NCBI RefSeq assembly: GCF_024643285.1 | Contig: NZ_JAMSLW010000001.1 | Span: 1-64,000 of the forward strand | DNA length: 64,000 nt | Direction: 5' to 3' | DNA from: Parapedobacter lycopersici | Lineage (GTDB): Bacteria; Bacteroidota; Bacteroidia; Sphingobacteriales; Sphingobacteriaceae | Shown here: positions 37,146 through 39,051 of the stretch, in pieces | Layout of the letters: each line of letters starts with the position of its first letter | Numbering within the stretch: position 1 is the stretch's first letter | Notes under the pieces: model-generated | The model's database searches: none | What the model was told of the DNA's origin: nothing | The model's input: the letters and a program-made list of their open reading frames with translations, nothing else | Translations under genes and position numbers: made by a program

Positions 37146-37694
37146 TTAAGGTTGGGTATCGGCAAGTCCTAATCTGATAAGCGCAAATACGGCATAGTTA
37201 AGCATATCCTGATAATTGGCCTTAATGCCTTCGGAGACTGTGGTATGTCCTTCATTATCTTCAATTTGCTTAACGCGGTATATTTTCATCAGGATGAGAT
37301 CCGTCAGTGAACTTAAGCGCATTTCGCGCCACGCTTCACCATAATCATGATTTTTATCGAACATCAATGCTTTGGTCTCATCTACAGCCTGCCCGTATTT
37401 TTCGGCTACCTCGGCAGTGGGTAGGTTGGCTTCCCCAGTGCTACCCAGTTCCAGCTGCATGATGCCAATGACGCAATAGTTGACAATGGCGATATATTCA
37501 TCCACCACGCTGTCGCCCACGCGGGAAACCCGCTTTTCTTCCAATGTACGGATCCGTTGCGCCTTGATATATAATTGATCAGTAATTGACGGAAGCCGCA
37601 TGATCCGCCATGCTGTGCCGTAATCGGTGGTCTTTTTTATAAATAACTGCTGGCAACGGGTTATAATCCGGTCGTATTGGGCGGCTGTGTCCAT
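37146..37694 (-). CDS. DUF1599 protein with internal duplication
   Basis: 182 residues from the ATG at 37694; the family begins near A-A-Q-Y-D-R-I-I. Two homologous halves are visible: F-I-K-K-T-T-D-Y-G-T-A-W-R-I-M-R-L with I-K-A-Q-R-I-R, and M-F-D-K-N-H-D-Y-G-E-A-W-R-E-M-R-L with M-K-I-Y-R-V-K. The repeated K-x-x-D-Y-G-x-A-W-R-x-M-R motif is the hallmark. Function unknown; the helical pattern recalls MazG-like all-alpha folds (weak inference). First gene of the operon to gldA. Confidence 0.88.
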   Translation of the reverse strand: MDTAAQYDRIITRCQQLFIKKTTDYGTAWRIMRLPSITDQLYIKAQRIRTLEEKRVSRVGDSVVDEYIAIVNYCVIGIMQLELGSTGEANLPTAEVAEKYGQAVDETKALMFDKNHDYGEAWREMRLSSLTDLILMKIYRVKQIEDNEGHTTVSEGIKANYQDMLNYAVFALIRLGLADTQP

Positions 37695-37739
37695 AAGTAC
37701 GTTACGTTTCCTTAAATGTTGTTGCGTTGTGGTGTTCGA

Positions 37740-37898: not shown

Positions 37899-38687
37899 AT
37901 GGAAATACCTTCATTGCGGACAGTTCAGGTGACCCGTTATGTGACGCCGCTGCGCGAAGGCGGCTCATTGCCGGCCATTGCGGAGGCTGATGACGGGTTT
38001 TTATATGCACTTAAATTCCGGGGCGCCGGACAGGGAAGCAAGGCCCTGATCGCCGAATTAATTGGAGGCGAAATTGCTCGTGCGTTGGGCCTCCGGATCC
38101 CCGAAATTGTATTTGCGGTATTGAATGAGGCCTTTGGGAGGACCGAACCCGATGAGGAGATACAGGATTTGCTGCGGGCCAGCACGGGACTTAATCTGGC
38201 GTTGCATTACCTTTCCGGTGCGATGACGTTTGACCCCGCGGTAACGGTAGTGGATCCACAGCTGGCATCCCGGATTGTCTGGCTCGATTGCCTGCTGACA
38301 AATGTAGACCGTACAGTAAAAAACACCAACATGCTGATGTGGCACCGTGAACTGTGGCTGATTGATCATGGTGCATCACTGTATTTCCACCACACCTGGG
38401 ATGGCTGGGAGGAACAGGCGTTAAAGCCTTTCGTCCAGGTTAGGGATCACGTACTGCTTCGCTGGGCATCGGCCCTGGAAGACGCAGACGCGGCCTGTAA
38501 GGCAGTGCTGACAGCCGAGCGTATCCGGGCGATTGTAAGGCTGGTGCCCGATGAATGGCTGCTGGCATTCCCGGAAGTTTCCGTAGCCGAGGCGCGGGAA
38601 GTATATGCCCGGTTTCTGGAGATGCGGGTTGCTGCATCCAGCGTATTTATAAATGAGGCTGAAGATGCAAGAAGTAGAATTGTTTGA
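37899..38687 (+). CDS. HipA-like kinase (HipA_2 type), no HipB partner
   Basis: 262 residues from the ATG at 37899; about 440 in classical HipA. Kinase-like landmarks are K39 in L-Y-A-L-K-F, E53 in I-A-E-L-I-G-G-E, the N-V-D-R-T-V-K-N-T-N loop with D137, and D156 in I-D-H-G-A-S, which sits where the metal-binding Asp is expected. The HipA N-terminal subdomain and an upstream HipB helix-turn-helix gene are both missing. Homologues are sometimes misnamed aminotransferases. It overlaps the downstream DUF3037 gene by 23-35 bp, so the two are probably made together. Target unknown. Confidence 0.83.
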   Translation: MEIPSLRTVQVTRYVTPLREGGSLPAIAEADDGFLYALKFRGAGQGSKALIAELIGGEIARALGLRIPEIVFAVLNEAFGRTEPDEEIQDLLRASTGLNLALHYLSGAMTFDPAVTVVDPQLASRIVWLDCLLTNVDRTVKNTNMLMWHRELWLIDHGASLYFHHTWDGWEEQALKPFVQVRDHVLLRWASALEDADAACKAVLTAERIRAIVRLVPDEWLLAFPEVSVAEAREVYARFLEMRVAASSVFINEAEDARSRIV

Positions 38688-39051
38688 ATACGCCGTCATC
38701 CGCCTGGTACCCCGTGTGGAACGGGAAGAATTTATCAATATCGGTGTGGTATTATATTGTCGTGGGCAACATTTCCTACAAATGCGGTATACGATTGATG
38801 CGAGCCGGTACACGCTGTTATTTCCCGATGTTGATGTGGCGGACCTGCACAGCTACCTCGCCGCATTCCAGCAGGTCTGTGAGGGCCGTGGTGGCGACAT
38901 CACCGCAATCGCGACGCTGCCGCCGGCCGAACGTTTCCGCTGGCTTACCGCCAAGCGCAGCACCATGATACAGACTTCGGCCGTACATCCGGGACGCTGT
39001 GCCGATGCAGCGGCGGCGCTTGACCGGCTGTATTCCCAGCTGGTATGCTAA
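38653..39051 (+). CDS. DUF3037 family protein
   Basis: 132 residues from 38653, or 128 from the ATG at 38665. The block Y-A-V-I-R-L-V-P-R-V-E-R-E-E-F-I-N-I-G-V-V-L-Y-C is diagnostic of DUF3037. The C-terminal part has R-F-R-W-L-T-A-x-R-S-T-M-I-Q-T-S. No enzymatic motif or DNA-binding domain is recognised. The start lies inside the end of the HipA-like gene, indicating tight coupling. A partner, substrate or regulator of that kinase is the natural inference. Confidence 0.88.
   Translation: MRLKMQEVELFEYAVIRLVPRVEREEFINIGVVLYCRGQHFLQMRYTIDASRYTLLFPDVDVADLHSYLAAFQQVCEGRGGDITAIATLPPAERFRWLTAKRSTMIQTSAVHPGRCADAAAALDRLYSQLVC

Follow-up and report, generated by a model that had tools for sequence, protein, structure and literature searches.

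Two overlapping genes in the window (the whole 64,000-nucleotide stretch of Parapedobacter lycopersici DNA analysed here) encode a small HipA-like kinase and a single-domain DUF3037 protein, and we propose that they form a chromosomal kinase module in which the kinase is restrained by DUF3037 through an antitoxin-like mechanism, perhaps with a housekeeping role; we give this reading a probability of about one half. A functional link between the two proteins is well supported, because the tight coupling between them proved genuine and conserved to great evolutionary depth. Kinases of the HipA type have been described as toxins, as persistence factors and, lately, in phage defence, and a branch carried by some nine-tenths of the near-complete genomes in a large family is unlike accessory defence genes.

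The kinase (Table 1) matches the Pfam family HipA_2 (PF20613; E 1.1e-17, 64.5 bits, above the curated cut-off of 27) and the PADLOC candidate-defence model PDC-M66A (E 1.1e-19), the only other Pfam match being a weak one to PI3/PI4-kinases. The Pfam scan gave no sign of HipA N-subdomain-1 or of the HipA N-terminal family in the protein, and classical HipA_C (PF07804) has no match anywhere in the window's own genome. The second gene matches PF11236 (E 6.5e-43). No HipB antitoxin gene lies beside the kinase, whose neighbours are DUF3037 and, on the other strand, a DUF1599 gene; this minus-strand DUF1599 gene is also what stands upstream, where there are no HipS and HipB genes. These matches and neighbours bear out the initial annotation, which had described a HipA-type kinase overlapping a DUF3037 gene with no HipB. 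It had put the overlap at 23-35 bp, and two possible ATG starts for DUF3037 do exist, in the +1 frame: 38653, giving 35 nt, and 38665, giving 23 nt. Relatives favour the second, and 38665 is the likely start by sequence conservation, since the ATG that gives 23 nt is present in 105 of 124 distinct relatives (the overlap is 11 nt in 14, 14 nt in two and 20 nt in one, and two have an ATG at none of these places). The same 23-nt overlap is annotated in one Bacteroides and one Parabacteroides record, and the frame relation of kinase to DUF3037 is identical (+1) in 124/124 distinct relatives; the overlap and the conserved frame would fit coupled synthesis of the two proteins.

Table 1. Features of the kinase-DUF3037 pair, numbered as in the window
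Feature	Position	Strand	Remarks
HipA-like kinase gene, first of the pair	37899..38687	+	262 aa; PF20613, PDC-M66A, AlphaFold2 model
REGGS (R19-S23)	37953..37967	+	presumed glycine-rich loop; invariant in 48/48
K39	38013..38015	+	presumed ATP-binding lysine; invariant in 48/48
D137-N142 (DRTVKN)	38307..38324	+	presumed catalytic loop; D137, R138, T139 and N142 invariant in 48/48
D156-H157-G158	38364..38372	+	presumed metal-binding motif; invariant in 48/48
Kinase/DUF3037 overlap	38665..38687	+	23 nt; shared bases code for the end of the kinase and for the first DUF3037 residues (MQE)
DUF3037 gene, single-domain partner	38665..39051	+	128 aa; PF11236; start by ATG conservation
RFRWLTAKRST (DUF3037 residues 90-100)	38932..38964	+	short-form signature

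In the kinase we take K39 to be the ATP-binding lysine, D137-N142 the catalytic loop and D156-H157-G158 the metal-binding motif. Across an alignment of 48 sequences, namely the window's and those of 47 of the 80 named loci, the presumed catalytic loop residues are invariant and so have been kept, as had been claimed from the window alone. S23 is a candidate autophosphorylated serine, by analogy with HipA and HipT. The AlphaFold2 model of the kinase (pLDDT 87.2) has its best PDB match, by VIA, in CtkA of Helicobacter pylori (PDB 3akk; Z 14.2 over 210 residues, rmsd 3.6, 13% identity). Further VIA matches are PI4KII (Z 11.4), HipT, CotH and FAM20 (each 11.1) and HipA (10.8), and a kinase profile searched against PDB sequences gave nothing beyond two matches attributable to chance (E 0.62 and 0.81). 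Judged by its model, the kinase is a HipA-clan core without N-subdomain-1. The initial annotation had spoken of a lost N-terminal subdomain, which stands as a description but not as a loss on this lineage, as HipT and (by size) CtkA are without it too. We know of no partner gene for CtkA.

The DUF3037 model (pLDDT 91.9) has little likeness to solved structures (best Foldseek PDB E 0.56, best VIA Z 3.0), which does not imply a new fold, and a DUF3037 profile found no relative among PDB sequences. No HipS row stands among the Foldseek and VIA rows shown, an absence that is not proof against a HipS or N-subdomain-1 fold. As both window proteins match PDC-M66 models (the partner matches PDC-M66B with E 2e-14), the pair might be an ordinary HipAD/PDC-M66 member, i.e. 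an anti-phage toxin-antitoxin system in which infection is aborted when DUF3037 stops neutralising the kinase, but we hold this to be somewhat unlikely. The partner match covers only positions 3-128 of the 281 in PDC-M66B, whereas the full PDC-M66 pair of locus L162 matches both PADLOC models end to end (E 4e-93 and 1e-95); that pair lies between two type I restriction genes, one for a specificity subunit on its upstream side and one R-subunit-like on its downstream side. Long partners are of about 275-330 aa, and their C-terminal part is missing from the 128-aa single domain of the window.

The view that no biochemical function had been described for such a pair, taken in the initial annotation, is out of date, as distant relatives have been published. 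In the Retron-Sda1 operon, a kinase and a DUF3037 protein make up a stand-alone defence system, PDC-M66; deletion of the kinase abolishes defence and deletion of DUF3037 is toxic (PMC12548924). DS-6, found with DefensePredictor and renamed HipAD (a name credited to Brenes and Laub 2025), pairs a HipA-like kinase with a partner in which DUF3037 is joined to DUF1829; defence is lost when DS-6A carries a catalytic mutation, and an AlphaFold3 prediction puts DS-6A and DS-6B together in a complex (PMC13092281). That E. coli is protected by DS-6/HipAD and by the Retron-Sda1 pair (PMC12548924, PMC13092281) speaks for the defence reading. DUF3037 had initially been suggested to be substrate, activator or inhibitor of the kinase: the deeply conserved coupling upholds a functional link, and of the three roles the inhibitor is the likeliest, because in these relatives the kinase is needed for defence and, in the Retron-Sda1 pair, loss of DUF3037 is toxic.

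A different possibility, which we consider unlikely although it is, like the defence reading, a serious rival, is that DUF3037 is the obligate activator, scaffold or substrate of a non-toxic housekeeping kinase, the two working as a signalling or maintenance device. Short forms of DUF3037 carry a strongly conserved motif of their own at about residues 90-100, in which R90-L94, A96, R98 and S99 are invariant and T100 nearly so (48 aligned), and the invariant S99 could be a phosphoacceptor. S99 and T100 are found together in 18/18 short forms but S or T stands at position 100 in only 5/21 long forms; the two residues are mostly not kept there and are thus not a shared mechanism, so we reject S99/T100 as a general phosphoacceptor or pseudosubstrate. 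PMC12548924, moreover, makes DUF3037 a neutraliser, not an activator, in the published relative.

How widely the pair occurs bears on both of these alternatives. DUF3037 and HipA_2 are each present in 261 of 301 genomes of the window's family (256 of 286 near-complete ones), and the two lists of bearers agree by eye. Classical HipA_C, unlike the pair, is in 44 of the 111 near-complete genomes of a 121-genome control from the family, which speaks against an ordinary defence system; HSDR_N reaches 80 of the same 111, many of its hits being partial. Near-core presence also suits the housekeeping kinase with an activating or phosphorylated DUF3037, as does the frequent absence of the pair from small genomes: 15 of the 20 absentees listed (of 40 in all) are of 2.4 Mb or less, against 1/261 bearers (by eye). 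At least two DUF3037 matches occur in 13/261 genomes (by eye), one of which (G008) has two short pairs (L013, L024), and we do not claim strict single copy. Among 14 well-known control genomes either family was found in Bacteroides ihuae only.

In a sample of 296 genomes from the phylum, 67 have DUF3037, 74 have HipA_2 and 64 have both, a pairing far beyond chance (Fisher p 4e-50, relatedness ignored). The 68 DUF3037 matches in this sample comprise 50 short forms, one per genome, and 18 long ones. The profile of HipA_2/DUF3037 adjacency suggested in the initial annotation thus reveals conserved adjacency, a kinase match lying next to 50/50 short forms and to 14/18 long ones; starting from the kinase, 80/80 named loci have DUF3037 alongside. 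Streptomyces has the short pair too, as do two distant members of the phylum (L179, L180), and the bearers include bacteria of the soil and of the gut. Four long DUF3037 genes have no detected adjacent kinase (L166, L168, L169, L177), that of L168 lying directly after an HsdR-like gene and that of L177 after a DUF3800 gene.

The closest named relatives come from six Parapedobacter species (76-81% identity). Over seven Parapedobacter sequences the mean pN/pS is 0.18 for the kinase and, looser, 0.29 for DUF3037, against 0.16 for the neighbouring DUF1599 gene and 0.17 for cysE (three sequences only). Purifying selection on the kinase is therefore about as strong as on the housekeeping genes beside it, which would also be expected of a non-toxic kinase with DUF3037 as activator or substrate.

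Distances among 29 genomes correlate more closely between kinase and DUF3037 (r 0.82; partial r 0.74 given RpoB) than between kinase and RpoB (0.68) or DUF3037 and RpoB (0.52). Parapedobacter forms one group in both trees (starred in the pair tree; 93, not starred, with RpoB), but the pair tree unites G554 with G581 (starred) where the RpoB tree unites G554 with G492. As the distances correlate and at least one starred conflict lies between families, the pair appears to have been inherited mostly together, with some transfer, and we do not claim strict vertical descent. Such past transfer, together with the toxin-antitoxin-like build, the gene overlap and one copy on a mobilizable Streptomyces plasmid, would be in keeping with a selfish addiction module held by post-segregational killing, of no benefit to its host. 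We regard this as highly improbable, given that the pair is mostly single copy, that it makes one group in Parapedobacter and that no gene beyond the pair is common to more than three of 11 genera (38 loci).

The kinase tree (46 rows, with long branches present; DS-6A and the Sda1 kinase not included) places 23/23 short-pair kinases together (82/74, not starred), and these with two solitary kinases, L212 and L213, their nearest kin in the tree, make a starred group (98/98). A single clade of the short-pair kinases and the three PDC-M66-like kinases (L162, L164, L165) is rejected (p-AU 0.0004), and one with all 14 long-pair kinases has p-AU 0.001, the groups for both tests having been picked after the tree was seen. 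The short-pair kinases thus look like a branch separate from the PDC-M66-like kinases, as far as sequences can tell, and this too makes ordinary HipAD/PDC-M66 membership less probable. Twelve regions around HipA_2 kinases without a detected DUF3037 were searched with three profiles: nine have no DUF3037-like frame in the stretch fetched and the other three have a divergent long partner, these three partners being in two of the three profiles by construction. The nine solitary kinases are L211, L212, L213 and L215-L220, of which L215 and L218 are short, at about 230 aa. Such solitary relatives show that HipA_2 kinases can do without a DUF3037 partner, which counts against the reading that we favour. 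That the nearest other kinases are solitary agrees with a kinase that is non-toxic in itself and uses DUF3037 as activator, scaffold or substrate.

Broken alleles point, if anywhere, the other way. The two weakest kinase matches in the family list, G279 and G183, both keep DUF3037. In G183 the kinase frame breaks near residues 167-177, possibly through a sequencing error, next to an intact DUF3037; G279 has a deletion that fuses residues 1-98 of the kinase with DUF3037 starting at about residue 13, so that the catalytic part is gone and DUF3037 is without about its first 12 residues. The resulting frame of 227 aa (L227, 1165-1788, minus strand) comprises the kinase N-lobe and nearly all of DUF3037 and is, by its sequence, a natural kinase-dead fusion. 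Were DUF3037 an activator or substrate, a broken kinase should free it to decay, yet both genomes retain it, although the breaks may be recent. The best DUF3037 matches in 261/261 family genomes are strong (E about 5e-40 or lower); the screen for broken kinases misses breaks after which the match is still good. With two kinases broken and no DUF3037, the difference is not significant, and the kinase gene is twice as large; the direction agrees with a kinase that is dispensable and a partner that is protected, but two cases prove nothing.

The genes flanking the pair are housekeeping genes by family; according to Pfam they encode DUF1599, a hexapeptide transferase that also matches serine acetyltransferase weakly, a PALP enzyme and a shikimate kinase. 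The DUF1599 gene (nucleotide modification associated domain 1; window 37149-37697) is divergent from the kinase and stands beside it in 6/6 named Parapedobacter loci and in no other genus among the 38 loci compared. Neighbours offer no conserved functional clue in these 38 loci: only the pair is common to all 11 genera, and the next most widespread gene reaches 3 (DUF3037 is counted in 37/38 loci, L150 having been missed by ORF picking though it has DUF3037). A PADLOC scan of nine neighbours gave matches for an ABC transporter ATPase alone (10 models, best mad3, E 9e-32), which we take as generic ATPase similarity, and there is no clear defence gene, contrary to what membership of a defence system would lead one to expect. 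The same may be said of mobility, as the collections searched gave a single phage match, a weak one (24% identity), and no case in Bacteroidota where a plasmid convincingly carries the pair. Five plasmid records matched. Two, from Bacteroidales, were not counted as mobile, having chromosomal-type genes near the pair (argH, pyrE and recX in the first record, genes for glycoside hydrolase and heparinase in the second), and a third record, of 11.85 Mb, was not counted either. The remaining two are from Streptomyces: one has kinase and DUF3037 and is typed mobilizable, and the other is without annotation in the stretch.

Four Parapedobacter genomes (G007, G005, G006, G004) have an accessory second pair besides the short one (L050, L051, L052, L053), composed of a HipA_2 kinase of about 275 aa (in L053 an alternative start would make it longer) and a partner of 276-277 aa that neither Pfam nor PADLOC recognised when tested on L050; a resolvase adjoins the pair in L050 and L051. 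This is possibly an undescribed mobile HipAD-like type. Against the short DUF3037 profile the accessory partner (A3) reaches an hhalign probability of 0.6%, and its putative link to short DUF3037 comes from context and alignment only. In two loci with long-type kinases, a gene of about 260 aa extends over the kinase start (L167, 3837-4628; L172, 1078-1863); it is possibly a third component. Its NERD-nuclease match in L167 does not reach the cut-off (E 0.04), and in L172 it has no Pfam match.

The mechanism that we infer for the window pair, comprising kinase activity, binding, inhibition, toxicity, target and trigger, treats the two genes as one kinase module. The first would give an active HipA-clan Ser/Thr-type kinase core and the second, from its overlapping start, a small single-domain DUF3037 protein that would bind the kinase and hold it in check, as an antitoxin does; released by a signal, the kinase would phosphorylate a cellular target and growth would slow or stop. 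In the short branch the pair is fixed on the chromosome and mostly present once, unlike a mobile defence element, and its main trigger may therefore be physiological, phage defence being also possible. The step from the published relatives to the short branch is weakened because the kinase clade is separate, and the published toxicity seems, from sequence comparison, to come from a different branch than the window pair.

Going further, and tentatively, the short pair could be a conserved housekeeping kinase module that Bacteroidota share with related pairs in Actinomycetes and that evolved within a clade of solitary HipA-like kinases, HipAD being a separate lineage that uses the same partner fold; it would then be a general, so far unrecognised growth-control switch, which we think possible but doubtful. 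Such a switch would be a new general regulator in Bacteroidota, gut Bacteroides included, and would reveal how the roles of a single kinase family in defence and in housekeeping relate to each other. If annotation pipelines label the short pair PDC-M66, defence systems may be over-counted.

Among known systems, HipAD/DS-6 resembles the window pair in having a HipA-like kinase next to DUF3037 and no HipB, and differs in that DS-6B, as described in PMC13092281, joins DUF3037 to DUF1829, whereas the window partner is DUF3037 alone. PDC-M66/Retron-Sda1 shares the same two families, whose models both window proteins match; unlike its 281-position model partner, however, the window's is of 128 aa, short of a long partner, and the window-type kinase clade is separate from the three PDC-M66-like kinases by the test given above, the Sda1 kinase lying outside the tree. 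Our literature search, which reached few subscription papers, found no publication on the short core branch. HipA-clan kinase families, the HipT families among them, were described in PMC8262856, the main text of which has 0 occurrences of DUF3037. Like the window pair, the HipI/HipN, HipJ/HipS and HipM modules described there have a HipA-clan kinase with a putative antitoxin gene downstream, but HipN and HipS have HipS-like or HIRAN domains (PMC8262856). HipT of HipBST (PDB 8ezs, 8ezr) is likewise a small kinase core without N-subdomain-1 (the VIA match extends over 189 residues); in contrast to HipBST, no HipS or HipB gene lies beside the window kinase and the downstream partner is DUF3037. 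From classical HipBA the window kinase differs in being without HipA_C and N-subdomain-1 and in having no HTH antitoxin HipB alongside. Kinase and DUF3037 are thus known already as a pair, and the window holds a variant of it, set apart by a single-domain partner, a separate kinase branch and near-core presence.
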